Below, piece by piece: positions 1 through 16,660 of a DNA stretch of 64,000 nucleotides. The notes beneath the pieces are model-generated. The model was not told the origin of the DNA and searched no databases. It saw nothing but the letters and a program-made list of their open reading frames with translations. The stretch covers positions 62,001 to 126,000 of the forward strand of contig NZ_BAOS01000003.1 of assembly GCF_002443295.1 (NCBI RefSeq), written 5' to 3'. Position 1 is the stretch's first letter; every line of letters starts with the position of its first letter. Made by a program: the position numbers and the translations under genes. Source of the DNA: Candidatus Scalindua japonica (GTDB lineage: Bacteria; Planctomycetota; Brocadiia; Brocadiales; Scalinduaceae).

Positions 1-383
1 ACGCCAATATTGAAGACTTTAGCGGTCTCGGTCAGAAACATCCTCTGCTGGCGGTAGTAATGTCCATATTCATGTTCTCCCTGGCAGGCATACCGCCATT
101 AATAGGGTTTATGGGAAAATTCTACATCTTCAGTGCTGCTATTAAATCTGGATTTCTCATACTGGCGATTATTGGTGTAATCAACAGTGTGATATCCGTT
201 TACTACTATTTAAGAGTTACCGTTGTAATCTATATGAAAAACCCTGAACGAGAATTCACGCCGCTTTCACTTTCACCATTCATCATCTTTGCTATCCTGG
301 TTACCGTCTTCGGCACAATATTTTTCGGTATTTTCCCCTCAAAGATAATCGCGTTCGCCCAGAAGTCTGCTGTTTTGTTTTAA
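1..383 (+). CDS. nuoN: NADH-quinone oxidoreductase subunit N, C-terminal part (5' end outside window)
   Basis: This is the C-terminal end of a NuoN-type proton-pumping subunit of respiratory complex I, an inner-membrane antiporter-like protein. The frame is open from the window edge (first full codon at base 3), so the true start lies outside. The segment FSLAGIPPLIGFMGKFYIF is a hallmark of the NuoN/NuoM/NuoL family, and the rest is strongly hydrophobic, consistent with about three membrane helices ending at a short polar tail. The upstream nuo genes should lie to the left. A weak hairpin (7-bp stem, 396-412) follows the stop. NuoN is preferred over NuoM/L because of the short tail after the last helix and the wording of the motif. 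Confidence 0.85.
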   Translation, partial: ANIEDFSGLGQKHPLLAVVMSIFMFSLAGIPPLIGFMGKFYIFSAAIKSGFLILAIIGVINSVISVYYYLRVTVVIYMKNPEREFTPLSLSPFIIFAILVTVFGTIFFGIFPSKIIAFAQKSAVLF

Positions 384-972
384 CATATCCTCGTGCTAAT
401 TTGTGAAATTAGTGTCTAAAGCCTTCTTTGTCAATCTCTTTTTTCTTAACATAAAAAAACTGTATGATTATTATCACCTTTTTCTCAATTCAACATACAT
501 AAAACTATTCCGCACACAGGATGGAGTGGAGAGCTATTCTATACTAGATGTTTAAGTTAAAAAAGGATTTAGACACATGAAACGTCTTGCCTGAAACCAT
601 TTTACTCGAATCATAACCTAAGTTCGACAAACAATTCTAAGAAAAGAGTGTAAAGTCGACTGAATCAAATAAAAACAAGTTGTAATTTAATTTTATTGTT
701 TACCCAGTCACAGTGATGTGTAGTACTTGCTCTTGGAAATAAATTGCTCTGCTTGCCAAAGTCGCCCCCCATTGCGATAATCAGTATCATTATGTTTATT
801 CGCGAAAAGACAAAAAAGTCCAGGGGCAAAAAGATATATATTTGACATCAGCTGATAGAATCAGTTCGCACCACAGCAGGCCCGAGACAGCAAATAGTTT
901 TAAATCCTGGATAGCTTCAGCTACCTGAAGATAAATGGAAAGAGCTTGCCAATTGTATTGAAGAATTGTTAA
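384..972. other. intergenic, no gene recognised
   Basis: About 590 bases separate nuoN from the transposase remnant. There is a short stem-loop at 396-412 (CTAATTT-gtg-AAATTAG) that could end nuoN transcription, although no T-run follows. Minus-strand open frames here show no recognisable motif. The last 100 or so bases probably belong to the decayed transposase, since a readable stretch (KELANCIEELL) appears just before a stop at 970. Confidence 0.5.
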
Positions 973-1623
973 CCAATTAAAGACGTTGCAGTAAAAGAAA
1001 ACACTCAATATGAGCAAGGAGCAATAGAACGAGAGTTGTCGAATCGTGCGAAGGAGATATTTTCTCTAAAAGAGATAGAAATTTTATATGATTTAACGAA
1101 TACCTATTTCGAAGGAAGCAAGAGGGGTAGTATAATAGCCAAGCATTACAAGTCAAAGGAGAAACAGGAAGCAGACGGACGGTAAAGTGACTGATAATCA
1201 ATTTGAAAAAAATGAGCAATGCGCACAAATGAGGCATCGCTTGGTACCTATGTGTTACGGACAAACCGTCCTGATCTTTGTTCTGAGGAGATATCCAGCA
1301 TTCATAGATCTCTGACAACACGAGTAGATAGTTTTAGAAACATGAAAGGCAATCTGGGTTTGCGTCCAAACGTTCATCATGCCGATATCCCAACTCTTGC
1401 CCATGTACATATCGCAGTATTGGCTTATCATATGCTTACAGGCATATTAAAAAAATTACGAACAGCGGATGTTCATTATAATTGGAATACGATTCGTAAT
1501 ATTCTTGCAACACATGTAAGGGTAACAACCAATATGAACACAGAGGATGGACACGTTATTGACGTCAGAACATACACAACCAACAGAAAAGCAGCATATG
1601 ATTTACAAAAAGCTACATATTAA
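973..1623 (+). pseudogene. IS1634-like (IS4 superfamily) transposase remnant
   Basis: Two pieces of one transposase lie in different frames. The first (973-1182) contains LYDLTNTYFEGSKRG, the stretch around the first catalytic Asp of IS1634-type DDE transposases. The second (1219-1620) has GTYVLRTNRPDL, FRNMKGNLGLRP and HVHIAVLAYHML, the C-terminal block with the catalytic Glu region of the same family. The middle of the protein, including the second Asp region, is missing, so the gene is dead. No terminal inverted repeats are evident. A different, separately truncated member of the family lies near 47.5-48.0 kb. Confidence 0.75.
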
Positions 1624-1773
1624 ACATACACCTTTAGGAAGGAAATACATGAAATCATCTGTTAAAATGCAAAGATGTAGTGCCGAAAATTGAGACACGG
1701 AAAACTTAATTACCTGTAATTATGAGAGCTGAAAATTTTATTTGTTGAACTTCGGCTAATAACCGTTCTCCTT

Positions 1774-1818
1774 TATGAACAGCTTAAACAGTTTAAACAA
1801 TTTCTTTACAATTTTTAC
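1774..1818. repeat. 9-bp phased degenerate repeat array (5 units), upstream of the four-helix-bundle gene
   Basis: Read in steps of nine bases from 1774 the units are TATGAACAG, CTTAAACAG, TTTAAACAA, TTTCTTTAC and AATTTTTAC. The array runs up to the ribosome binding site (GGAGG) of the gene at 1833. Similar arrays in the same step of nine lie at 2293-2382, 3661-3723 and 3822-3956. Confidence 0.7.
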
Positions 1819-1832
1819 ATGGAGGTAATACA

Positions 1833-2288
1833 ATGTCTGCTAAATATTTCGAAGATTTAGAAGCCTGGAAACTGTCAAGAAAATTGACAAATCAGATTTA
1901 TAAGATAAGTAATGATGGCAGATTTGCCAGAGACTACGGTCTACGTGATCAGATAAGGAGGGCCGCGGTTTCAATCATGTCAAACATTGCTGAAGGATAT
2001 GAAAGAAACGGTAATCAGGAATTTATTCAATTTCTCTCAATAGCAAAAGCATCATGTGGCGAAGTAAGATCACAACTATACGTCGCTATGGACCAATCCT
2101 ATATCATCAAAACAAAGAGTGAGCAATTAATTGATGAATGCAGGAAACTTTCAATCATGATAAATAACTTTATTGAGTACCTGAAAGGAAGTAAATATAA
2201 AGGTACTAAATACAAGATACCAGAGCAGAAAACCACAAAAGAAAAACTGGATGAAATGGTAAAACAGATTAAAGCAAAGTCTAAGTAA
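1833..2288 (+). CDS. four-helix bundle protein (23S rRNA intervening-sequence / S23-like family)
   Basis: The 151-aa product matches the four-helix-bundle family first known from 23S rRNA intervening sequences and related to the bAvd accessory proteins of diversity-generating retroelements. Key wording is FEDLEAWKLSRKLTNQIYK near the start, then LRDQIRRAAVSIMSNIAEGYER, FLSIAKASCGEVRSQLYVA and a closing helix; the last 35 residues are a Lys-rich tail. The start is supported by GGAGG nine bases upstream. No rRNA gene and no reverse transcriptase lie nearby, so this is a stand-alone copy of unknown role. It is closely bracketed by 9-bp repeat arrays, one ending at its ribosome binding site and one beginning five bases after its stop, which suggests the arrays and gene may travel as one unit. 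Confidence 0.85.
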   Translation: MSAKYFEDLEAWKLSRKLTNQIYKISNDGRFARDYGLRDQIRRAAVSIMSNIAEGYERNGNQEFIQFLSIAKASCGEVRSQLYVAMDQSYIIKTKSEQLIDECRKLSIMINNFIEYLKGSKYKGTKYKIPEQKTTKEKLDEMVKQIKAKSK

Positions 2289-2292
2289 ATTG

Positions 2293-2382
2293 TATAAACA
2301 GTGTAAACGGCTAGAACAGATTAAAAAGTTTAATCCGTTTAAACCGCTTAAACCGTTTAATCGGATTAAACGGTTTGAACGG
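2293..2382. repeat. 9-bp phased degenerate repeat array (10 units), downstream of the four-helix-bundle gene
   Basis: Ten consecutive nine-base units in perfect register: TATAAACAG, TGTAAACGG, CTAGAACAG, ATTAAAAAG, TTTAATCCG, TTTAAACCG, CTTAAACCG, TTTAATCGG, ATTAAACGG, TTTGAACGG. The consensus is close to TTTAAACCG. The array starts five bases after the stop codon. Within it lies a perfect 13-bp inverted repeat (see 2350-2376). Confidence 0.85.
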
Positions 2383-2389
2383 CTTTTTA
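2350..2389 (+). terminator. probable intrinsic terminator formed by repeat units
   Basis: AAACCGTTTAATC (2350-2362) and GATTAAACGGTTT (2364-2376) are perfect reverse complements separated by one base, so the real loop would be a few bases. GAACGGC and a run of five T follow. The stem is built from the 9-bp repeat units, and could end the transcript of the four-helix-bundle gene. Confidence 0.45.
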
Positions 2390-2881
2390 TATTTCCATTT
2401 AGCCCTGAGGATCTGAACAAGTGTAGTAGAGAAAATACGGGAAAAATAGTCTTAAAAGCAATTGTTTCAATAATCAACATAGTGTTTAAAAAGGTAACAC
2501 AATGATGGAAGTAAAAAAATATTGTGTTAATTCTGTGTTATTTTAAAAAATTAAAATCAGCTTAAGGCTGAGGTGATTAACCTGGCCCGGTCGGAACTGA
2601 TTCATCCGGGCAGGAGGGGAAACTCTTTCTGCAAAAACTCTGTTTTTTTTGAAGGCCGGTTTTCTTATCCAACACGAATATTGAAACTGATACTATTAAA
2701 ATTAACAATTGGCAACAATTTTGCAAATCAAAGAGAATCTTACAAAATCCTAAATTACGACCTGCATAATTCTAAAACTAAAGCTCGATGAAATTTAAAG
2801 TCACCTGATAAGAAACACGACATGTTTTATCAGACAGAAATACGACGCAGTAATTTTCGTCGATGGCTTAACTTGAATATC
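2383..2881. other. intergenic upstream of cas6
   Basis: About 500 bases without a gene I can support. A GC-rich imperfect hairpin lies near 2581-2615 (GCCCGG paired with CCGGGC). The short open frame at 2573-2791 has no recognisable motif. The promoter of the cas operon is presumably here, but I cannot place it. Confidence 0.4.
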
Positions 2882-3658
2882 ATGAAATTGAAAATATCTC
2901 TTATTTCGGACAAAGAAGTTGTTCTACCAAAAGAGTTTAACTACATAACCCAGGCTCTGATTTATCAGCTTATTGACAAAGTGCCTGCCCAATGGCTGCA
3001 TGAAGATGGTTTTAAAGTAGAAAAACGATCTTTCAAACTATTTGTATTCTCATCAATTCTTGAAAAAGCTAAATATTATAAGCAAAAGGTGATTTTTACC
3101 TTTCCTCACGCAATCAGTTTTTACATTTCTTCCCCTGTTTCCTGGATTCTTGAGCAGGTGGCAAAGAATACGGTTTTCCCTGCCCGACATCTTTCTGGTG
3201 GGAGCGAGAGGATAATGTTTGGTCAGAACAAAATGAGTATTTCATCAGTTGAAATCATAAAGAATGATGAAATAACAGAAAACAAGATAAGGATCAACGC
3301 TCTGACTCCTATAGAAATCCATTCAACTCTTCTGAAAGGAGACGGCAGTAAAAAAACCTACTACTACTCTCCATCAGAAACAGAGTACAGCGAATTAATA
3401 AGCGAAAATCTCAGAAAGAAATGGGAAGCATATTACAAAGAAAATTGTCCATACAATATTACAACCGAACCGGTACAGATTAAATATTGCAGGGAAAGGA
3501 TAAGGTCTTTCAAAGGCACAGTCATAAAGGGTTGGACAGGCCATTTCTGGATTGAAGGCGAACCGGAGTTCCTGCAGTTTGCATTCGCAGTGGGACTGGG
3601 ATCGAGGAATAGTAGCGGGTTTGGGTTTATTGAAAAAGTAGAGAGAGCAGGAGTTTAA
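2882..3658 (+). CDS. cas6: CRISPR-associated endoribonuclease Cas6
   Basis: Cas6 cuts the CRISPR transcript inside each repeat to make crRNAs that keep an 8-base 5' handle (ATTGAAAC for this array's repeat). The 258-aa protein begins MKLKISLIS, has LPKEFNYITQALIYQLI as the usual opening helix of the first RAMP fold, and ends with the glycine-rich loop AVGLGSRNSSGFGFIEKV typical of the family. I chose the ATG at 2882 because Cas6 proteins normally begin at this beta strand; an in-frame ATG at 2822 would add 20 unrelated residues. No strong ribosome binding site is visible for either. It is separated from cas8b by 660 bases that contain repeat arrays and a decayed duplicate of its own 3' end. 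Confidence 0.9.
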   Translation: MKLKISLISDKEVVLPKEFNYITQALIYQLIDKVPAQWLHEDGFKVEKRSFKLFVFSSILEKAKYYKQKVIFTFPHAISFYISSPVSWILEQVAKNTVFPARHLSGGSERIMFGQNKMSISSVEIIKNDEITENKIRINALTPIEIHSTLLKGDGSKKTYYYSPSETEYSELISENLRKKWEAYYKENCPYNITTEPVQIKYCRERIRSFKGTVIKGWTGHFWIEGEPEFLQFAFAVGLGSRNSSGFGFIEKVERAGV

Positions 3659-3660
3659 GT

Positions 3661-3723
3661 AATTTTTACAGTTCTAACGCTTTTACAACTTGAACAGTTT
3701 GAACAATTTAAATCATTTATATA
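3661..3723. repeat. 9-bp phased degenerate repeat array (7 units), downstream of cas6
   Basis: Units in steps of nine: AATTTTTAC, AGTTCTAAC, GCTTTTACA, ACTTGAACA, GTTTGAACA, ATTTAAATC, ATTTATATA. The array begins two bases after the cas6 stop, repeating the arrangement seen after the four-helix-bundle gene. The unit AATTTTTAC also occurs in the array at 1774-1818. Confidence 0.65.
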
Positions 3724-3821
3724 TGGCACGAAAGCAGATCACCCGCACTTGTTATTTGCCTTGTGACTGACGACCTTTTTGTTGATGCAAAGTATCTGAT
3801 TCGAATGACAAAATTGCTTAC

Positions 3822-3956
3822 GTTGAACTGTTCGAACAGTTTGTATTCATTTGCTCCGTTTGAACAGCTTAAACCACTTGAACTGCTTAAACAACTTAAC
3901 CTGTTTAATTGGCTTGAATGGTTTAAGCTACTTAACCCGTTTAAACAGTTAGTATA
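3822..3956. repeat. 9-bp phased degenerate repeat array (15 units)
   Basis: Fifteen nine-base units in unbroken register, from GTTGAACTG (3822) and TTCGAACAG through GTTTGAACA, GCTTAAACC, ACTTGAACT, GCTTAAACA, ACTTAACCT, GTTTAATTG, GCTTGAATG, GTTTAAGCT, ACTTAACCC and GTTTAAACA to GTTAGTATA. Because nine is a multiple of three, both strands give false leucine-rich open frames, which explains apparent ORFs at 3763-3960 (plus) and 3717-3971 (minus). Confidence 0.85.
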
Positions 3957-4132
3957 TTGAAGAGTAAGCACAGATTTGACTCGACGTACACTGAAGAAAC
4001 TGAGGGCATCCGTCCAGGTAGAATGTCTCGGAAGAAGTCAGCATGTTAAATGGCAGAAGACAAAAAACGGGAATCAGGTTATACCCGATTATATAGGTAA
4101 TTAGTTGGGTAATAAAAAAATTGATCATGTGT

Positions 4133-4312
4133 AGATGATATATTGCGTGCAAAGGATTAGGACTTTTAAAAGCCACAATCATAAAGGTCTGGACCGGTCA
4201 CTTCTAGCTGGAAAGAAAACCGGAGTTACTACAATTTGCGATTACGGCTGGATTGAGATCGAGGAATAGCAGCGGGTTTGGGTTTGTTGAAAAAGTGGAG
4301 AAAAGAAAGGGA
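4133..4312 (+). pseudogene. decayed second copy of the cas6 3' end
   Basis: This stretch aligns almost without gaps to cas6 bases 3474-3655. Shared blocks include ATCGAGGAATAG, AGCGGGTTTGGGTTT and TTGAAAAAGT. The copy carries an in-frame TAG where cas6 has TGG in its HFWIE segment, plus other substitutions, so it is not functional. It still contains the sequence for the Gly-rich loop. It directly precedes cas8b. The gap between the real cas6 end and this copy is filled by two 9-bp repeat arrays. Confidence 0.85.
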
Positions 4313-4320
4313 ATAAAAGA

Positions 4321-6342
4321 ATGCTGAAAGAGATTGTTGAGTTTTCTACGAAATTAGAAGATGCCGGGATTTATGAAATGGTTAACGAAGAAGAGAAGAA
4401 ACTTGATAAACCTGTTATGGTTATTCCGGTCACCGATGATCTGAAAGAAATTAAAACGGATGATATATATTTTGTTTTTAAAGACATAAAAGATGGGGCG
4501 GTTGAAAACGGAGTTACTGTAAAAAAGCAATATGTCATTTTAGATGGAAAGAAAGAAAACGAGATCAAATGGGAAATGAAGAATAGCGAAGACAACCCAT
4601 CAAATTTGAAAAATTGTTCTAATGAAAACGTACAATGGCAGAATATACTAAAGTCGTTATCTATTTATACAAAAAAACCGTCTAATGATCCTAAGGGTAA
4701 TAAAAGCATAGGGAGTAACAAAGGTACAAATTCATACAGTCTACTTATTTTTGAAGGCAAGTTTGACAGTGGTACATTAAGTAACAGGAAGTTTAAAGGC
4801 GACATCTTTAATTGCAAGCAAGGTTTTTCACAAAAACTGGTAGACACATACAGGAAATCAAATATTCTAAAAGGTCTGCCGGCTGATTTAAATGAAGAGT
4901 TGAAGGATAATTATTTAAAGTTGTTTAGTTCTGTAGGTTCAGATGCCAATATAACTGACATCTGGAAAAAAATTGATGGATTAAAAAACATGCTATCCGT
5001 TTTAGATGAAAAAAAGAATGAGTGGAAATTTCCTGGCAATGCAATGTTTGTTATATTTAAACTTCCTGATATTTTTTATTCACAAGAAAACAATTACAAG
5101 ATATGGCATGATAAATATCTACAAAAGAAGATATTTAAAGAACAATTGGACAAATATCCACAGGGTGATTGTTGTGCTTGTAATAAAAAAAATATAAGCA
5201 TTTATATTCCCAATGCATTTCATAATTTGGATCAAGGAAAACCTTTTTTAAAGCATCATGATAGATTTGTCGATTACAACATTGAGGTATGTGAAACATG
5301 TTCACTAGACATTTATAAATTTCAGGAATATTTTTTAAACAAACTTAAGGTCACATTGTTCCCTCTGTTTATCAATACAAATGACAGAGAAAATGTCATT
5401 AATTTTTTTAAGAAGGAAGGTAAGGTAACGAAAAAAGGATTCAAAGAGATTATTCATGAAGTTTATAAAAACAGTTCAAACGAAGAATTAGACTTTTATC
5501 TGATTATTTATAATTGGAATGATAAAATAATCGCCTTTGACTATATTACAGGTTTTAAATTTAAAATGTATGGAGAAATTATATTTTCAATTGAGAGTAC
5601 GCTTGATAAGTTCTTTTTTAATAAAAAACTTATAAATCACTACTTTTCAGAAATTAAAGAGAAAAAAAAGAAAGGTTCTAAAAAAGAAAGCAAGGTACCA
5701 AAAGGTGCCGAACGTGGTAATCATCAAATGGATATTCTTGTATACAAATATAGGCAACAGCTTTTTGATTATTTTTATAGAGCAAAATATACAGGATTAT
5801 CACAAAAAATCTTAGCTGATATCTATTTTGATTCTCTGAAAGTGAGACTTAGGGAGTTTTTCGATAAAAAAGAGGATAATAAAACAACGTATTACAACCT
5901 TAAAAATATGAGCGATGTCTATTTTGATTTAGACAGTATATTCAGCAAAAAGGAGACAAAAATGGAAACCGTAGAAAGGATTAAAAAGGAGGGGAAGATT
6001 ACGGATAAAGAGAGTTTCGCCTATTATGCAGGACAAATAGCCTACTATCTTTTAAACCAATCAAAGTCCTCTGAAAAAACACATGCCATGATAGAGCCAT
6101 TCATAAACATGAATAATTTTGGACTACTTGCTGAAAGGATTAAGGAATTGTTTAATTCCTACAAACATGCCATTCCGCTTAATGCTAAAAGATTTAATGA
6201 AATGTTTTCAGGAATGTCGGGATTCCTTTACGACAACAAAGAAGAGAAGTTCACCAGGGAGTTAATAACTCTTTTTTATGCCGGTTATTTTAATAGTAAC
6301 GAAAATATTTTTTATGCTTCGTCAAAGGAGGGAGAAAAGTGA
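4321..6342 (+). CDS. cas8b: type I-B Cascade large subunit Cas8b (Csh1/TM1802-like)
   Basis: Large subunit of the type I-B interference complex, expected to recognise the PAM and recruit Cas3. The 673-aa length and position directly before cas7 and cas5 fit the Csh1/TM1802 family. Two Cys pairs (C283/C286 in CCACNKK and C324/C327 in CETCSLD) form the zinc-finger typical of this family. The protein is Lys-rich and diverged, so the name rests on architecture and neighbours more than on a long conserved motif. An AG-rich ribosome binding site precedes the ATG. The stop overlaps the cas7 start (ATG... GTGA), indicating translational coupling. Confidence 0.8.
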   Translation: MLKEIVEFSTKLEDAGIYEMVNEEEKKLDKPVMVIPVTDDLKEIKTDDIYFVFKDIKDGAVENGVTVKKQYVILDGKKENEIKWEMKNSEDNPSNLKNCSNENVQWQNILKSLSIYTKKPSNDPKGNKSIGSNKGTNSYSLLIFEGKFDSGTLSNRKFKGDIFNCKQGFSQKLVDTYRKSNILKGLPADLNEELKDNYLKLFSSVGSDANITDIWKKIDGLKNMLSVLDEKKNEWKFPGNAMFVIFKLPDIFYSQENNYKIWHDKYLQKKIFKEQLDKYPQGDCCACNKKNISIYIPNAFHNLDQGKPFLKHHDRFVDYNIEVCETCSLDIYKFQEYFLNKLKVTLFPLFINTNDRENVINFFKKEGKVTKKGFKEIIHEVYKNSSNEELDFYLIIYNWNDKIIAFDYITGFKFKMYGEIIFSIESTLDKFFFNKKLINHYFSEIKEKKKKGSKKESKVPKGAERGNHQMDILVYKYRQQLFDYFYRAKYTGLSQKILADIYFDSLKVRLREFFDKKEDNKTTYYNLKNMSDVYFDLDSIFSKKETKMETVERIKKEGKITDKESFAYYAGQIAYYLLNQSKSSEKTHAMIEPFINMNNFGLLAERIKELFNSYKHAIPLNAKRFNEMFSGMSGFLYDNKEEKFTRELITLFYAGYFNSNENIFYASSKEGEK

Positions 6343-7301
6343 ACGAAACTAAAGAAACAAAACAAGATGAAAGTGAATTCAAAAGCAGATGTTATGGAAT
6401 TATTGTAATAAAGAGTGAAAACAGTAATTTTAATGCTGACTTTACCGGTAATCCAAGAAGGTTGCCTGATGAAAATGGGACTATCTACGCAACTGATAAG
6501 GCATTAAAGTATGCCATTAGAAAATACTGGGTAGATAACAGTCAGAATGTCTTTGTCTGGAAAACCTTCAGAAAAGATAACGGTAAGTATCTGCCATATA
6601 CTCTTGAAGAAAGATACAAAAATATGAAAGAAAAACTAGAGAAAGAGACGCCTCTGGAAGTTTTCGCGGAATGTATTGATACAAAACTGTTTGGGATTAC
6701 CTTCGCAATGCAATCCGCTACAGAAGGAGAAAGTAAAAATATATCTCTTACCGGCCCTGTTCAAATAAGCTATGGAGTAAACAAGTATGTAGAAAATATT
6801 ATTTTCTCAAATGACATACTTTCTCCATACGCTACAGATTCCGGAGACAAAAGTTCAACAATAGGAAATGAAAACAAGGCAAAGGAGATTTATTATGTGT
6901 ACGATTTTGTAGTAAACCCTTCAAACATACTTAACCATTATGAAGATAATCCCGAAGTGCAGGAGAAAATGATGCTTAGGGTAGGAGATATAGACAGCCT
7001 GAAAGATGCTCTTAAAAATGCCGTAACAAACCTGAACACCGCATCAAAGGTTGGGTCTGAAAACATGCTTACTCTGTTTATAACGATGAATGAAGGATCA
7101 AAAGTACAAATCCCTACCTTAAAAAGTCTTGTAAGGATAACAAAAAACAGTGGAAATCCTACAATAGATTTTACATCAGTAGTGAAAACGCTTAATAATT
7201 ATGGAGAAAAGAGTATGGAATTGTATTACGATAACACTTTGATTGATGTGAAAGGTTGTGACCAAATTGATAACAAACATCAATCAAATAACAAGTATTA
7301 A
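6339..7301 (+). CDS. cas7: Cascade backbone subunit Cas7 (Csh2, type I-B)
   Basis: Cas7 polymerises along the crRNA to form the Cascade backbone. The 320-aa product has the opening strand SRCYGIIVIKSENSNFNADF followed by GNPRRLPD, characteristic of Csh2/Cas7b, and NISLTGPVQISYGVNKY in the middle, matching the conserved GPVQ segment. It begins at a GTG four bases before the cas8b stop. The next gene in line is not cas5, as usual in I-B operons, but a toxin-antitoxin pair. Confidence 0.85.
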   Translation: MNETKETKQDESEFKSRCYGIIVIKSENSNFNADFTGNPRRLPDENGTIYATDKALKYAIRKYWVDNSQNVFVWKTFRKDNGKYLPYTLEERYKNMKEKLEKETPLEVFAECIDTKLFGITFAMQSATEGESKNISLTGPVQISYGVNKYVENIIFSNDILSPYATDSGDKSSTIGNENKAKEIYYVYDFVVNPSNILNHYEDNPEVQEKMMLRVGDIDSLKDALKNAVTNLNTASKVGSENMLTLFITMNEGSKVQIPTLKSLVRITKNSGNPTIDFTSVVKTLNNYGEKSMELYYDNTLIDVKGCDQIDNKHQSNNKY

Positions 7302-7351
7302 TTGTTGTTCTCATTTATTTCATTAATAATATTATATTGGAGGTAACTTTT

Positions 7352-7546
7352 ATGGCTATTACTGCAATACAGGGCGTTTGTCATGATGGTAAAATAGAAC
7401 CATTGGAAAAAATTCCTTACAAAACGGATAAGAAGGTTATCATTGTTTTTCTGGATGACGCAGAAGATAGGATATGGGAAAACGCTGTAGCTGAAGATTT
7501 TGTGAAGGGATACTCGGAAAAGGATACCGCTTATGACAAACTATGA
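7352..7546 (+). CDS. antitoxin of a MazF/PemK-type pair (DUF104-like)
   Basis: A 64-aa protein with the pattern GKIEPLEKIPYKTDKKVIIVFL, as in DUF104-like antitoxins, then an acidic C-terminal part ending DFVKGYSEKDTAYDKL that is expected to wrap the toxin. Start chosen at 7352, preceded by TTGGAGG at a good distance; an upstream in-frame start at 7337 would overlap that ribosome binding site. It overlaps the toxin gene by 14 bases. The pair sits between cas7 and cas5 in the same orientation, an unusual location. Confidence 0.75.
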   Translation: MAITAIQGVCHDGKIEPLEKIPYKTDKKVIIVFLDDAEDRIWENAVAEDFVKGYSEKDTAYDKL

Positions 7547-7865
7547 TTTTGGCGATATATTACTCGTGAAATTTCCCTATAGCGAAGAAAAAGGAGAAAC
7601 TAAAAGGCCAGTGGTTGTTTTAGCACAGACAGATGTAAAGGACATTGTTGTGGCAAAGGTGACCAGTATGGAACAAAGAGGCGAATATGATATAGCAATA
7701 GATAATTGGAAACACGTGGGCTTATTATATCCCTCCATTGTTAGAATAGATAAATTGGCTACTCTTTCAAAAGAGAGATTGACAAGAAAACTTGGAGTGC
7801 TGAATGATTCATATAAGCCCAATATAATCTATAAGATAAAACAACTGTTTAAAATAGAGAATTAA
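7533..7865 (+). CDS. MazF/PemK-family endoribonuclease toxin
   Basis: The 110-aa product starts YDFGDILLVKFPYS and continues TKRPVVVLAQ, the N-terminal signature of PemK/MazF-like toxins, then VGLLYPSIVRIDKLATLSKERL, which matches the second conserved block with the catalytic region. Such toxins cleave mRNA when the antitoxin is lost. The start overlaps the antitoxin end, as usual for these pairs. The gene is 21 bases from cas5 and would be co-transcribed with the cas genes. Confidence 0.85.
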   Translation: MTNYDFGDILLVKFPYSEEKGETKRPVVVLAQTDVKDIVVAKVTSMEQRGEYDIAIDNWKHVGLLYPSIVRIDKLATLSKERLTRKLGVLNDSYKPNIIYKIKQLFKIEN

Positions 7866-7886
7866 AATGAATACTGGAGAAAATCA

Positions 7887-8684
7887 ATGAACGTATTCTC
7901 TTTTGACATTGCCGGAGATATGGCATTCTTCAAAAAAAACGATGCCAATGACATGGTGTATACAAGCTACAACTTTCTGCATAAACCGGTGACATTGGGT
8001 ATTATTGGTGCTATCCTTGGAATTTCCGGTTACTCGAAATCCAAGTCAAATCAACATCCTGACTTTTACACAAATTTAATGGATATGAAAATTGCCATAC
8101 TTCCCCATTATGAGAAACCTTTAAAAAAAGTTATTACAGGTTTTAATAATGCTTCTGGGCTTGCATCAAGAAGTACAAAGAAACAAGGCGAGACATGGCA
8201 GATAAGAGAGCAAATTCTTATGGGAGAACCGGAAATCAGATATACGGTGATTATTCTTAATAATGATTCAATTCAGGACAACTTGATGAGTAATCTGAAG
8301 CACTTATTAAAAAACAGAGAATCCGAATATCCTCTCTATTTCGGTAAAAATGAGTTTTTTGCCTATCATGAGAAATATCAAGAATATGAAGCAACACCAT
8401 TGTCCGATACAGAGGCATCTGTCTGTAGTTTAATTAAAACAGGTGATGAAAATACAACAATTTTTAGAGAAACAACTTTTGAAAATTTTGACCCATTTGA
8501 AAGAACATCAAATAAAGGCTATACAATATTTGAATACCTTCCTTACGATTTTGATGAACGGGGCTTTTACAAAAAGGATATGTTCGTCCTGACTCAACGA
8601 GAAATAATAATAAAAGATAAAACAGGCTTTTATACACTTGTAACTAAAAACGGAGGAGAACCGTTCAATGTTCAGTTTATTTAA
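7887..8684 (+). CDS. cas5: Cascade subunit Cas5 (type I-B)
   Basis: Cas5 caps the 5' handle of the crRNA in Cascade. The 265-aa protein opens VFSFDIAGDMAFFKKNDAND and continues KPVTLGIIGAILGISGYSK, the two conserved blocks of I-B Cas5 (the GxxxGIxG segment after the first strand). The ATG follows TGGAG. The end overlaps the start of cas3 by 17 bases. Confidence 0.85.
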   Translation: MNVFSFDIAGDMAFFKKNDANDMVYTSYNFLHKPVTLGIIGAILGISGYSKSKSNQHPDFYTNLMDMKIAILPHYEKPLKKVITGFNNASGLASRSTKKQGETWQIREQILMGEPEIRYTVIILNNDSIQDNLMSNLKHLLKNRESEYPLYFGKNEFFAYHEKYQEYEATPLSDTEASVCSLIKTGDENTTIFRETTFENFDPFERTSNKGYTIFEYLPYDFDERGFYKKDMFVLTQREIIIKDKTGFYTLVTKNGGEPFNVQFI

Positions 8685-11237
8685 TGTAGATTTAAAAGGT
8701 ATTAAAGCGTTTGCTCATTCAAAGAAAGATTGCCTTAAGGAGCAGTTCCACATACATTGTGATAAAACATTGTCCCACTTTGACGACATAATAGACACTT
8801 ATGAAATTGAGAGCATCTTCTACCAGCTACTAACAGATATCGATGAGGACGATAGTGTTGACATCGAAAAGCTTTTAAAGATTATGCGGGAATTTGTGAT
8901 TTTTCATGATATTGGCAAATTAACTCCTGAATTTCAGGCAAAACTGGATGGTGAAAAGAATAAGACAACGCATAGTGATAAAAGTTTTTTTGTTTTGGTA
9001 TATGCGGTTCTGAAATTGAAAAAAACTGATAATATCAACAACAAAGAGTTCATAATACTTTTCCTTCTTCTCTATTCAGTATACAAACATCATGGCAGGT
9101 TAAATGATATACTTGATGACATTCAAAACTTTTCATACAGGGTTGATAGTAACGTTTTGGTTGACATTCTTAAACAACTTAATGAAGCGCCGAATGACGA
9201 TATTCTTGAAATAATGTCGGCAAGAGGATTCTGGCAAAAATGGAACGATCGCGGCACAAGAGAGCTTGTAAGAAAGCTATCGAAAGACTCCCTGTCATTC
9301 TTTGTCCTTGTAAAGATGTTTCACTCCTGCCTGATTTCATCTGACTATTTTGCAACAATGGAATATAAGACAGGACAAAAACCTAATTACGACACTCTTA
9401 ATAATGTATTAAATGAAGAAATTTCTAAAAATTTCCATGAAACTGACGAATTTGAAATTAATCTAGAAAAGGAAATAAATTTTAATGTAAATATTAATAA
9501 AGAGAGAAATAGTCTCAGGAATACAAATATTGATGATCTTAAATGGTCTGATAATCTGGAGCGGAAAGAAACGCTCAACAAGATGCGTTCAATTTTAAAT
9601 GTTATTACGGAAGACAATATTGAGGATATCCTGAAAGAGCAATCCGATAGTAGAACGTTTTTTCTCCACATACCTACGGGTGGAGGTAAAACAAATATTT
9701 CACTACGTTTAGCATTAAAGATTATGGAAAAGAGGGAGATAAAAAAGATATTCTATGTTTTTCCTTTTATTAATTTGATTGAACAAAGCTATGAAGCACT
9801 TGGAAAGTTTATAGGTTTGGGAAATATGGCCCGTCTGGATTCGAGATTTATCGATTCTTCAGACAATGAAGAGAAGTATCAGGACGACAATACAGTATTT
9901 GCAAATTATGTTGAAAATCTGTTTTTCAACAAACCTGTTCTTTTCATGAGCCATGTAAAATTCTTTGATCTTTTCTTCAGGAATGACAAAAACTCCAATT
10001 ATAACTTTTATCAATTGGCCAATAGTGTTGTCATAATAGATGAAATCCAGGCATATAAAGATACTGTATGGACAGAAGTCGCTCATATTTTTAACATAAT
10101 AGGTAGATTTCTTAATACCCATTTTATCGTAATGAGCGCAACGCTTCCAAGGCTGGATATACTTTCGAATTCATTATTTCATCAAATAATACCTGAAGAC
10201 ACATCCAGCAAAGTATTCAAACATGAGGTGTTTAAAAGGACAAAAATAATACCTGACAAAAAACTAAAAATCAATGATTCAAAGGATAAAAACAAATTCA
10301 ACAAATTGGTAAACCGGATAAAAAAACTTGATAAAAAAACAAGATTCTTGTCGTTCTGAATACGGTAAAAGACTCTTTCGATTTATACTTAAAAATACAG
10401 AGTGAAAAAACAATATCTGGAAAATATGAGATTTACCTACTTAATTCAACAATTATAGATACAAGAAAAAAAGCTATACTTAAAATATGTAAAGATAAAA
10501 ACACGAAGGTTATCCTTGTATCTACTCAATCAGTTGAGGCCGGCGTTGATATTGATTTTGATATAGGGTTTAGAGCTTATGCACCATTCGATAGTATCGT
10601 TCAGGTCGCAGGTAGGATAAACAGGAATAGCAGCAAAGAGTGCTGTGAAATGTTTGTATTTGAAGACGGTACAAGCAAAAACGTTTACAGAAAAGATTCT
10701 AAATCAATAGAAACGAATGATGATACTTCTGTCAAATCCTTCTTTAGTAAAAAAATCATTGATGAAAATAGTGAAATAAAAGAATTCTACGAAAGGGTTA
10801 TAACTGGAATTGATCAAAAAAACAAGACACCATTTATTGATAACTCTCAAACAAACATATCCGATATCAGGAATCTGTTTTTAAGACAGGTAGATCGAAA
10901 TGTACATCTGATTGAAGGTGATACAATTTCTCTTTATATCCCTTATGATGAAACCGGTGAAAAATTATGGAGTGAATACAAAGCGCTCCTTGACGAAGAA
11001 AAATGTCTTGAAAATGCGATACTAATCAAAGAATTTAGAAAACAATTGATACCTTACTCAATAAATATTTTTAACCGCTATACAAAGTACGGAAAATTAA
11101 AACAAATAATTGATGAAGAAATAAGGTACGGATTTTACTATTGTGAAAACTGGCCTAAATATTACAACCTGGAGACGGGACTTGATCAGGAGGAATTTAA
11201 AAGGATAGTCGGAGAAAGAGAGGCTCTTTTTGTATGA
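8668..11237 (+). CDS. cas3: CRISPR nuclease-helicase Cas3, frameshifted at an A-run
   Basis: Cas3 unwinds and degrades target DNA recruited by Cascade. The HD nuclease domain is N-terminal (FHDIGKLTPEFQ near residue 78). The helicase follows with Walker A HIPTGGGKT (about 335-343), Walker B VVIIDEIQAY (about 457) and motif III VMSATLP. The first frame stops at 10359, but the C-terminal RecA domain continues from about 10341 in the -1 frame (VVLNTVKDSFDLYL, STQSVEAGVDIDFD, IVQVAGRINR with the Arg finger) to 11237. Inserting one A in the A7 tract at 10333-10339 restores a single protein of about 856 aa. It is either a real inactivating mutation, a slippage site or a base-calling error. The protein carries HD and helicase on one chain, as usual for I-B. 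Confidence 0.85.
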
Positions 11238-11733
11238 CTTGGCAAGAGTAACAGGTTCAATTTTGCAGGCATTTGTTATCTGCCCGAGACAGGCATGGCT
11301 TATGTCAAGGAATATATCCGGCAATCAGTATAATGAATTTATCGCAATCGGCCGTTTGCTTTCAGGTGAAACATACAAAAGGGACAAGAAAGAGATAATG
11401 ATAGGCGGTAACAAAATTGACGTCATCAGACAGAAAAATGGCATTATCAATCTGATTGAAACTAAAAAGAGTTCCCGGATGCTCGAAGCGTCACAGATGC
11501 AACTGCTCTTATATCTCTATAATTTCTCAAAAAAAGGCCAAACCATCAAAGGTGAAATCAGAGTACCAAAAGAAAAAAAGGTGATTCCTGTGGAATTATC
11601 AGATGAACGCATTGTTGAGGTGGAAAATTTGATATCAGAAATTAAGTGTATGCTTCAAAAGGAATCTACGCCTGCTAAAGTATGGATTAAGTTTTGTAAA
11701 ACATGTTCCTATCTGGAATTCTGCTGGTCATAA
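11230..11733 (+). CDS. cas4: Cas4 exonuclease (adaptation)
   Basis: Cas4 trims prespacers and helps select PAM and orientation with Cas1-Cas2. The 167-aa product has the first iron-sulfur Cys in VICPRQ (C18) and the remaining three in FCKTCSYLEFCWS at the C-terminus (C156, C159, C165). The RecB-type core is visible as IDVIRQKNGIINLIETKKSS (Asp, then E-x-K) followed by SQMQLLLYLY. The start appears to be TTG at 11230, overlapping the last codons of cas3; no ATG lies nearby in frame. Confidence 0.9.
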   Translation: MYDLARVTGSILQAFVICPRQAWLMSRNISGNQYNEFIAIGRLLSGETYKRDKKEIMIGGNKIDVIRQKNGIINLIETKKSSRMLEASQMQLLLYLYNFSKKGQTIKGEIRVPKEKKVIPVELSDERIVEVENLISEIKCMLQKESTPAKVWIKFCKTCSYLEFCWS

Positions 11734-11739
11734 ACAATC

Positions 11740-12735
11740 ATGAAAGAAACCATATATATATTTTCAAACGGACGCCTTAAACGGAAAGACAACACTCTTT
11801 TCTTTGAAACCGAAGATGGGAATAAGAAATTTATTCCTGTTGAAAATACAAAAGAGATCTTTATGTTCGGTGAGAACGACCTGAACTCTAAGGTACTCAA
11901 CTTTCTCTCTCAAAACGAAATAGTCCTCTCATACTTCAATTACTTCGGCTACTACGCGGGTAGCTTTTACCCCAGGGAGCATTATAACTCAGGCTTTATG
12001 ATACTCAAACAGGCAGACCATTATACCGATGAAACGAAGAGGAAGTTTATCGCTAAGAGATTTATTGAAGGTGCCGTGAAAAACTGTCTGAAAATCCTGA
12101 AATATTATGAAAGGAGGGGAAAAGACCTGATACAACATATTGACGATATAGAAGAGACTCTTGCTAAACTTGAAGAACAGGAAAGTATTGAGAAGGCGAT
12201 GGCAATCGAGGGTCAGATAAAGCAGATATACTACAACACTTTTAATAATATTATTGACAATCCTGAGTTCTCCTTTGAAAGGCGGACAAAAAGACCACCC
12301 AGGGACTATTTGAACACGTTGATAAGTTTTTCAAATTCAATGATATATACCTATGTGCTTTCAGAGATATACCAGACTCATCTTGATCCGCGTATTGGCT
12401 TTCTACATACAACCAACTTCAGACGGTTTACACTCAATCTTGACGTGGCCGAGATATTTAAACCTGTTATCGGCGACAGGACAATCTTCTCGGTAATTAA
12501 CAAGAAGATCATTACGGAGAACGATTTTGAAAGACAGTTGAATGGGATATTGCTGAAAGACACCGCCAGGAAAAAATTTATTCAATATATGGAAGAGCGC
12601 CTTAAACAGACAATTAAACACTCCGGCCTGAAGAAGCAGGTAAGCTATAGAAGGCTCATGAGGCTGGAACTTTATAAACTGGAGAAACATCTCATGGGTG
12701 AGGATCAATACAAACCCTTTGTTATGGAGTGGTAA
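11740..12735 (+). CDS. cas1: CRISPR integrase Cas1 (type I-B)
   Basis: Cas1 with Cas2 inserts new spacers at the leader end of the array. The 331-aa length and opening KETIYIFSNGRLKRKDNTLFF are typical of I-B Cas1. The metal-binding triad is recognisable in order: Glu in YVLSEIYQ, His in GFLHTTNF and Asp in LNLDVAEIFKP. It follows cas4 by six bases, and its stop shares one base with the cas2 start. Confidence 0.95.
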   Translation: MKETIYIFSNGRLKRKDNTLFFETEDGNKKFIPVENTKEIFMFGENDLNSKVLNFLSQNEIVLSYFNYFGYYAGSFYPREHYNSGFMILKQADHYTDETKRKFIAKRFIEGAVKNCLKILKYYERRGKDLIQHIDDIEETLAKLEEQESIEKAMAIEGQIKQIYYNTFNNIIDNPEFSFERRTKRPPRDYLNTLISFSNSMIYTYVLSEIYQTHLDPRIGFLHTTNFRRFTLNLDVAEIFKPVIGDRTIFSVINKKIITENDFERQLNGILLKDTARKKFIQYMEERLKQTIKHSGLKKQVSYRRLMRLELYKLEKHLMGEDQYKPFVMEW

Positions 12736-13001
12736 TGTTTGTAATTCTTTATTATGATGTTAATAGTAAGCGCTGTGGAAAAATGCTTAAGACCTGCAGG
12801 AAACATCTCCAGTGGGTACAGAACTCGGTTTTTGAAGGTGAAATGTCTGATGCCGGATATGAAAAAATGATTTTAGAGTTGAGAAAAATTATTAAAGTAG
12901 ATAGCGAAGACTCAATTGTTGTTTATAAATTCAGGCACATGAAGTACTACGACAGATGTGTCTATGGTACGGATAAAAAAGAGGATATTAAATTCATCTA
13001 A
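12735..13001 (+). CDS. cas2: Cas2
   Basis: The product is 88 aa from the ATG at 12735, which overlaps the cas1 stop (TAATG). It begins MFVILYYDVNSKRC with the conserved Asp of the ferredoxin-fold Cas2 family. Cas2 dimers bridge two Cas1 dimers in the adaptation complex. A GTG two codons earlier is possible, but ATG gives the usual family start. It is the last gene of the cas operon before the CRISPR leader. Confidence 0.92.
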   Translation: MFVILYYDVNSKRCGKMLKTCRKHLQWVQNSVFEGEMSDAGYEKMILELRKIIKVDSEDSIVVYKFRHMKYYDRCVYGTDKKEDIKFI

Positions 13002-13140
13002 TATCTGTCGACCTTAAATAGTGTAAAAAAGGTTGAGGACCGACAGAAACAGACCATAATCTAATGGTTTTATTGATCAATTTGCTATGTGACATTATAA
13101 CATATAAGCAAAAATCTGCCGTATCCCGCTTAAAAGGCGG
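13002..13140 (+). promoter_or_regulatory. CRISPR leader
   Basis: This is the 139-base stretch between cas2 and the first repeat. Its location beside cas1-cas2 and the orientation of the repeat (ending ATTGAAAC, which becomes the crRNA 5' handle) show that the array is transcribed rightward from here, with the newest spacers at the left end. The last bases (GCTTAAAAGGCGG) touch the first repeat. Confidence 0.75.
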
Positions 13141-16100
13141 GTTTTTATATTACCTATGAGGAATTGAAACGATTTCCCTTGATGAACATTTTTTGCGCTA
13201 CTACCTCCGTTTTTATATTACCTATGAGGAATTGAAACAATTATTAGAAAGGAAATTAAAAAAATATGATTAATGTTTTTATATTACCTATGAGGAATTG
13301 AAACAATTATTAGAAAGGAAATTAAAAAAATATGATTAATGTTTTTATATTACCTATGAGGAATTGAAACCTAGAAGCCAAAATACCTGTTCTTCTGTAT
13401 CTTTCCGTTTTTATATTACCTATGAGGAATTGAAACTTTTTAAACTATTATTTTTTTCAAATTGGGTGTCGGTTTTTATATTACCTATGAGGAATTGAAA
13501 CATTGGTCTAGGTGACAGATAAATTAATAAATTTTATGTTTTTATATTACCTATGAGGAATTGAAACTCCGCTATGGCGGTAACTCTTGCGATTGGAGGA
13601 TTGGTTTTTATATTACCTATGAGGAATTGAAACGAATCAGGCACAACTCCACAGGGAAATCTAGCAGCGTTTTTATATTACCTATGAGGAATTGAAACGG
13701 GGTTCTGTGATATCGGCAATTGAATTAAAACGTGTTTTTATATTACCTATGAGGAATTGAAACGAGATTCGGTACACAAGCTATTGTCAGACCGCATCGT
13801 TTTTATATTACCTATGAGGAATTGAAACTTGCGCTAGTGCGCATTTAACGTACCGTGATAATAGTTTTTATATTACCTATGAGGAATTGAAACGTTATAG
13901 AAATCTAATCGTTGCCGCCACAGGAACTGGTTTTTATATTACCTATGAGGAATTGAAACTTATAAATAAATTATCAAGTGAAAAACAAAATAAACGTTTT
14001 TATATTACCTATGAGGAATTGAAACCAAGCAGATCACCGCGCCTGTCACCTGTAAAGGATTGGTTTTTATATTACCTATGAGGAATTGAAACATGGAATG
14101 TTCCTAGAGATGAAAGACACGAAAAAAACGTTTTTATATTACCTATGAGGAATTGAAACCGATATTTAACAACGAAGATTTTGAACAATCAGCAGTTTTT
14201 ATATTACCTATGAGGAATTGAAACGTGTTTTAACTTTTGTTATAGTTGCTGCATAATCTAGTTTTTATATTACCTATGAGGAATTGAAACCACACAGACC
14301 GTTTATAATATTTTCTACCTTTGCCGTTTTTATATTACCTATGAGGAATTGAAACCCCACTGTTTAAGCTTACCCGGCTTAAACTCAAGCGTTTTTATAT
14401 TACCTATGAGGAATTGAAACCACATTATTTCACGTGCCATTATTACCCTCCTTACAGTTTTTATATTACCTATGAGGAATTGAAACAGCTGTGATTCTCT
14501 ACCATGACATGTCTGTTTTGGGTTTTTATATTACCTATGAGGAATTGAAACAGCTACAGTCGTAGCGACATCGGCTAATGGTTATGAGTTTTTATATTAC
14601 CTATGAGGAATTGAAACTGCCGTAGTTCACGACTATTGTTCCGGCAAAGTAGGTTTTTATATTACCTATGAGGAATTGAAACAAACTACAATGTCTGGCT
14701 GGATATCATACCTGGTACGTTTTTATATTACCTATGAGGAATTGAAACTTCGCATCTGTTTTGCCTGACATGTATCTTGACAGGTTTTTATATTACCTAT
14801 GAGGAATTGAAACTCACGTACAAACAGTCGCGCAGAGAGTATCCGAAGGGTTTTTATATTACCTATGAGGAATTGAAACAAGGTACTGTGGGAAGAGGAA
14901 GATTGCACGGGTCTGGTTTTTATATTACCTATGAGGAATTGAAACATAGTACGATTCATAAAAGTAACACGAATCTTGCAAGTTTTTATATTACCTATGA
15001 GGAATTGAAACTCAAGGTTGACGGAAACAGGCAAAGAGTGAAGGGAAGGTTTTTATATTACCTATGAGGAATTGAAACTTAGCGGTTCCGTCGGAATATA
15101 TTTCTTTGTTTAACGTTTTTATATTACCTATGAGGAATTGAAACTTTTATGGAGATAAAGAAAAAGAATTTGCTCTTATGGTTTTTATATTACCTATGAG
15201 GAATTGAAACTCTTTTAACAGAACTCATGGTCATAAGACTGCATTCGTTTTTATATTACCTATGAGGAATTGAAACCGAAACAGCATCCGCAAAAGCTAA
15301 TTCAGTTTTAAAGTTTTTATATTACCTATGAGGAATTGAAACATCTTTCTTCAGTATTGTCATCTAGTTTTTCTAATACGTTTTTATATTACCTATGAGG
15401 AATTGAAACCAGTTAAAAAAATTAGTTTTTAGGGTAAAAATTCCGTTTTTATATTACCTATGAGGAATTGAAACAGTAAGGCAATTGGTCTAGGTTTTTT
15501 TTGAAAGGAAAGTTTTTATATTACCTATGAGGAATTGAAACCAGATTAATACTGGATCGCATCCTTCGATACAACCTGTTTTTATATTACCTATGAGGAA
15601 TTGAAACATCTTGGAGGTTTCTTAAACTTAAATAAAAAGAAAGTTTTTATATTACCTATGAGGAATTGAAACAAATTTACAAGATTCTCCAATTATTAAT
15701 ACAGATGAGTTTTTATATTACCTATGAGGAATTGAAACCAAGTAAATATAAGTCAAGTCGAACAAACTTCAGAAGTTTTTATATTACCTATGAGGAATTG
15801 AAACGGTTATTTGATACCTATATTTTGCGACGAAGCTCTGTTTTTATATTACCTATGAGGAATTGAAACAGATTTTTTCAGAATAATCATTTTTTCCACT
15901 TTTTTGTTTTTATATTACCTATGAGGAATTGAAACATGGGAAAACAGTAAGAGTATATCAAGACAAATAATGTTTTTATATTACCTATGAGGAATTGAAA
16001 CATAAGCTTCTCTTTTGCAGCTTGTACGTAATAGTCTCGTTTTTATATTACCTATGAGGAATTGAAACAGATATTGCAGAAGAAATGCTGGACCTAGAAA

Positions 16101-16660
16101 GTCAGTTTTTATATTACCTATGAGGAATTGAAACATTTGTAAAGTGACAAATATCTTCCTGTCTAATATTGTTTTTATATTACCTATGAGGAATTGAAAC
16201 AAGCTACCAGGATCATATATTGTAAGGCATACCAGGTTTTTATATTACCTATGAGGAATTGAAACATATCCTTGATTGTTGATTCTGTGCTGAATTGCCA
16301 AGTTTTTATATTACCTATGAGGAATTGAAACCCTGTATTGCCAAGAAATGTGTTGGCTTTTGCTATGGTTTTTATATTACCTATGAGGAATTGAAACATC
16401 GCTCTACCAAACTTCGTCTCTTTGTATAAAACAGTTTTTATATTACCTATGAGGAATTGAAACCGCTAGGGATAACCTGCCACCCTAGCGTGTGTACTCT
16501 GTTTTTATATTACCTATGAGGAATTGAAACATACTTGCCACCTTGATAAATGTCTCTCCTGTCTCGTTTTTATATTACCTATGAGGAATTGAAACATACT
16601 AAAAGTGTTCTTGTTTGGCATCGCCCATTTGTTTTTATATTACCTATGAGGAATTGAAAC
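13141..16660 (+). CRISPR. CRISPR array: 54 repeats of 30 bp, 53 spacers
   Basis: The 30-base repeat begins GTTTTTATATTACC and ends TATGAGGAATTGAAAC. I located 54 copies by position, the first at 13141-13170 and the last at 16631-16660, and saw no variant among them, including the last. Spacers are mostly 35-37 bases (the first is 38). Spacers 2 (13239-13274) and 3 (13305-13340) are identical. Short open frames within the array arise from the repeat (FYITYEELK on one strand, FQFLIGNIKT on the other) and are not genes. The repeat end ATTGAAAC fits the type I-B cas genes next to it. Confidence 0.98.

Follow-up and report, generated by a model that had tools for sequence, protein, structure and literature searches.

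A MazF/PemK-type toxin–antitoxin pair at the cas7–cas5 junction of a type I-B CRISPR–Cas operon, conserved in three anammox-group genomes

The window analysed here (the whole stretch of 64,000 nucleotides) is part of a 4.8 Mb genome from the anammox order. It carries a type I-B operon at 2822-13001 with the gene order cas6-cas8b-cas7-antitoxin-toxin-cas5-cas3-cas4-cas1-cas2, followed by a CRISPR array, all on the + strand (Table 1). The toxin–antitoxin pair is complete, lies on one strand and is flanked on both sides by cas genes, and the ORF coordinates bore out the location, orientation and operon spacing that the first-pass annotation had claimed for it. The antitoxin starts 50 nt past the end of cas7 and is preceded by a GGAGGT site, the antitoxin and toxin ORFs overlap by 14 nt, and the toxin ends 21 nt before the start of cas5. 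Scans for promoters and terminators returned hits no more numerous than those in shuffled sequence. Between cas6 and cas8b, the window also holds a decayed 3' fragment of cas6 (4165-4301, 79% to the intact cas6) near a tract of 9-bp-period TTTAAACCG-like repeats; the insert with this fragment is absent from the two related genomes described below (G016 and G026). Spacers 2 and 3 of the array (13239-13340) were found to be identical adjacent units.

Table 1. Features of the type I-B operon and of the pair embedded in it (window positions).
Feature	Position	Strand	Evidence or remark
cas6	2822..3658	+	PF01881 E 2e-33, TIGR01877
cas8b	4321..6342	+	PADLOC Cas8b E 5e-39
cas7	6339..7301	+	PF05107 E 4e-34
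cas7–antitoxin spacer, carrying the GGAGGT ribosome-binding site	7302..7351	+	homologous in three genomes
antitoxin gene, 64 aa, no Pfam model for its family	7352..7546	+	
MazF/PemK-type toxin gene, 110 aa	7533..7865	+	PF02452
toxin–cas5 spacer	7866..7886	+	homologous in three genomes
cas5b	7887..8684	+	TIGR02592 E 3e-24
cas3, frameshift-broken	8668..11237	+	
cas4, cas1, cas2	11230..13001	+	
CRISPR array, 54 repeats of GTTTTTATATTACCTATGAGGAATTGAAAC	13141..16660	+	

The toxin was confirmed as a member of the PemK/MazF family, as had been claimed from the sequence, with a PF02452 E value of 5.3e-13 and a score of 49.6 bits, above the curated cut-off of 23.1. The toxin profile also matched MazF and EndoA structures, with E values of about 2e-5, and residues R25 and T44, which correspond to the Arg and Thr of EndoA in the alignment, did not vary among the 11 proteins aligned. 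These two positions match the catalytic residues of MazF; the active-site residues have been kept, and the toxin is probably active. It therefore shares its protein family and the aligned catalytic Arg/Thr with the MazF/EndoA (PemK) mRNA interferases, such as Bacillus subtilis EndoA (4me7), but the sequence identity is low and the antitoxin is unlike the MazE models. When compared with viral contigs, the toxin profile gave no match, and the plasmid search with the toxin returned only distant PemK toxins, the best at about 40% identity.

The antitoxin had been described as DUF104-like. No Pfam match was obtained for it up to an E value of 10, none of 12 family members matched PF01954 (DUF104) up to the same limit, and a PF01954 search of this genome did not recover it. 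When compared by hhalign with DUF104 proteins of the same order, 33 N-terminal residues of the antitoxin aligned with a probability of 70–77%. Since PF01954 leaves the antitoxin unmatched and the profile alignment covers just these 33 residues, the earlier description holds as a remote N-terminal resemblance and fails as membership of the family. The C-terminal half, presumably the toxin-binding part, contains the invariant residues W42, F50, G53, Y54, D58, Y61 and L64. Structure prediction of the antitoxin and the toxin from four-sequence alignments reached a pLDDT of about 46 and was set aside.

The same pair was found at the cas7/cas5 junction of two further genomes, the Scalindua SCAELEC01 assembly from the family of the window's genome (G016, L043/L047), with values of 95% for the toxin and 90% for cas7, and a closed 4.4 Mb genome from another family of the order (G026, L046), with values of 77% and 75%, respectively. 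Because the identical junction holds the same pair in these two genomes, its presence in the window is not a matter of chance. Both the cas7–antitoxin and the toxin–cas5 junctions align across the three loci, and in the tree the three nested pairs lie together on one side of a split from the copies found elsewhere (SH-aLRT 96.6, bootstrap 83), so that a single insertion explains all three. A related complete operon from another planctomycete family (G130, L058) has the same gene order, with about 13 bp between cas7 and cas5 and no pair, and the operons of Arcobacter cloacae pACLO and of a Fusobacteria plasmid, with cas7–cas5 gaps of 0–4 bp, also have none. As cas7 and cas5 are adjacent in related operons that are free of the pair, the pair represents the derived state. 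Outside the operon, the neighbouring genes are not the same in the three genomes, except for a 23S_rRNA_IVP gene common to the window and G016, and the pair stays with the operon at these differing chromosomal sites, which indicates that the operon moved or was transferred carrying the pair. Recent transfer of the pair alone, considered because of the low synonymous divergence between the window and G016, was rejected, as the high-identity block spans from the end of cas8b to well past the pair. The G016 operon bears two toxin–antitoxin pairs, and in the second (L047 7843-8471) a small ORF resembling an antitoxin is combined with a TumE toxin (PF20126 E 2e-12) that overlaps the start of cas6 by 4 bp.

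Values of dN/dS, determined by the Nei–Gojobori method among the three loci (window, G016 and G026), were 0.08–0.11 for the antitoxin and 0.14–0.28 for the toxin, compared with 0.02–0.24 for the cas genes. Both genes of the pair are under purifying selection and are kept as proteins, and the pair is no recent accident of one strain. The link with Cascade proposed in the first-pass annotation survives to the extent that the insertion is ancestral to three loci and both of its genes are under purifying selection, which goes beyond a chance event in a single genome; the more specific proposal of a guard or of abortive infection was not supported. The state of cas3 bears directly on this role. In the window, an A7 run (about 10333-10339) is the site of a frameshift in cas3, and in G016 the same A run is longer and is accompanied by an additional in-frame stop; the cas3 of G026 is intact (852 aa). 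Both breaks come from metagenome assemblies and that of the window could be an assembly error, yet two separate assemblies are affected. If the breaks are real, two of the three operons combine a disrupted cas3 with an intact pair, and the downstream effector gene is therefore not preserved by the pair. This contradicts the idea that the pair locks the whole CRISPR system, and serves as a caution that operon membership does not equal operon protection.

Above 55% identity, only six copies of this subfamily were found, half of them in the single lineage of this cas operon and half elsewhere. The latter adjoin an IS110-family transposase in Nitrospirae SZUA-224 (L044), lie within an hdr cluster, downstream of a ParD-like ORF, in bacterium Dive96_bin3.184 (L045), and stand alone in G021 (L048), where the toxin is interrupted by a stop. 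The phyla of the first two (77 and 9 genomes, respectively) yielded no further copies above 55% identity, and the distant relatives (36–42%) that were read had no type I-B cas genes alongside. The varied non-cas sites of these copies show that the subfamily is mobile and not CRISPR-specific. A similar frequency of the pair outside cas loci had been named beforehand as the outcome that would make the link with CRISPR accidental, and the count came out about even.

In a survey that covered 63 Cas7 loci from 59 genomes (a phylum sample with G016, G021 and G061 added by hand), a PemK toxin lay between cas7 and cas5 in this lineage alone. PemK toxins within 10 kb of a Cas7 gene numbered five in the survey set, with about 0.7 expected by chance; they comprise the three nested copies (one event), a copy about 6 kb upstream in G021 and a copy upstream of a type I-C operon in G015, which was missed by the genome search yet scores against PF02452 with an E value of 2.8e-6. 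Counted as independent events, these copies are mildly in excess, as they would be if such pairs collected in defence regions. In G015, a type I-B cas6 remnant lies between the PemK pair (L067 6284-6813 and about 7457-7597) and the type I-C cas operon, and this remnant of the present operon type beside another cas locus suggests that the operon can be lost. In G021, two pairs, one PemK and one TacA/GNAT, are located directly upstream of cas6 in another type I-B operon (L108 14-2222).

The abundance of type II pairs (147 PemK matches in the 59 genomes), the other pairs near cas loci in G016, G015 and G021, and the close relatives at unrelated sites would all suit a passenger, kept solely by the harm that the toxin does on loss of the antitoxin and affecting neither CRISPR maintenance nor defence against phages. 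This explanation is possible though doubtful, since one site has been retained across three loci at about 25% protein divergence with the frames intact in all three, in contrast to the stand-alone G021 copy with its interrupted toxin.

A dedicated guard or abortive-infection backup was also considered, in which Cascade or the output of the operon would control the pair, and inhibition by a phage or loss of Cascade would free MazF and arrest the cell. The position between two Cascade genes, the exact site kept in three genomes and the purifying selection on both genes accord with such a role, for which the RNA-based CreTA and CrePA provide a precedent as CRISPR-linked guards (PMC12737573). A crRNA-like repeat was sought over positions 1-13100 and none with 11 or fewer mismatches was found, a limit that more strongly degenerate repeats would escape. 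The search for a CreA-like RNA was negative, and the array spacers showed no match within the pair, the short matches elsewhere (14–19 bases) looking like chance. With no degenerate CRISPR repeat near the pair, a CreTA-like arrangement is not supported. The even distribution of the subfamily inside and outside cas loci and the broken cas3 genes also argue against a guard, as does the fact that the pair brings its own antitoxin, so that Cascade is unnecessary for silencing; this explanation is accordingly regarded as unlikely. A protein-based form of it, in which an excess of antitoxin would depend on Cascade assembly or operon output, and MazF would be set free once the operon was lost or collapsed under phage attack, is considered decidedly unlikely; if true, it would amount to abortive infection or addiction to CRISPR.

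The evidence points, with moderate confidence, to a captured mobile type II pair with at most a generic cis-addiction effect, favouring retention of the surrounding operon segment. The relatives found by an IS110-type transposase, in an hdr cluster and alone with a toxin stop behave as mobile pairs do. The ancestor of the type I-B cassette that is now present in three anammox-group genomes received, in a single insertion between cas7 and cas5, a self-contained type II pair made up of a MazF-type mRNA interferase and a small antitoxin. The pair has the same orientation as Cascade and is probably transcribed together with it from the operon promoter; the antitoxin would be made first, and the toxin start overlaps the antitoxin end, as in ordinary pairs. 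It would persist because the toxin stays active, so that the antitoxin must remain alongside. Removal or silencing of the stretch would starve the cell of a probably short-lived antitoxin and free the toxin, which would then cut mRNA and stop growth. Such cis-addiction would incidentally favour keeping the operon segment around the pair, and none of its steps would require Cascade or crRNA. Nevertheless, purifying selection at one conserved site could equally reflect a Cascade-related function, even generic protection would not reach the downstream cas3, broken in two of the three operons, and the lineage was found at three loci only; all three points weigh against cis-addiction.

Zhang, Doak and Ye described toxin–antitoxin pairs in cas loci in 2013, eight MazE antitoxins among them; all belonged to type I systems, and most lay on the strand of the cas genes (PMC3936711). 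Like the 2013 cases, the present one is an exception with respect to Makarova et al. It differs from them in its antitoxin without a Pfam family, in its site between cas7 and cas5, and in the demonstration of a single origin and of retention across three genomes. Type II pairs within cas cassettes are also known from the Sulfolobales, where interspersed vapBC pairs were suggested in a review to maintain the cassette (PMC4390879); those are VapC-type toxins in archaeal cassettes, sometimes several in each, whereas the operon here is a bacterial one of type I-B with a single MazF-type pair. CreTA, which guards type I-B Cascade by means of RNA, is similar in being a toxic element within a type I-B locus that could make survival depend on keeping it (PMC12737573, PMC9458426), but it needs a crRNA-like antitoxin and repression by Cascade. 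Here, both components are proteins, with nothing resembling a repeat nearby. CreTA and CrePA are the counterparts with RNA antitoxins (PMC12737573). Maintenance of a CRISPR cassette by a type II pair has already been proposed in print (PMC4390879; PMC3936711). The present pair is of a known type, and its conservation is unusually clear. With a single insertion shared by three genomes, two genes under selection and related operons free of the pair, this is a well-documented protein pair fixed in a Cascade operon, and the earlier proposal of a stabilising effect on CRISPR cassettes becomes testable through a defined comparison of operons with and without it. Upstream of cas6, the window also encodes a four-helix protein of the 23S_rRNA_IVP family (1833-2288; PF05635 E 7e-37), which is present in G016 too and belongs to a family known from cas loci (PMC3936711).
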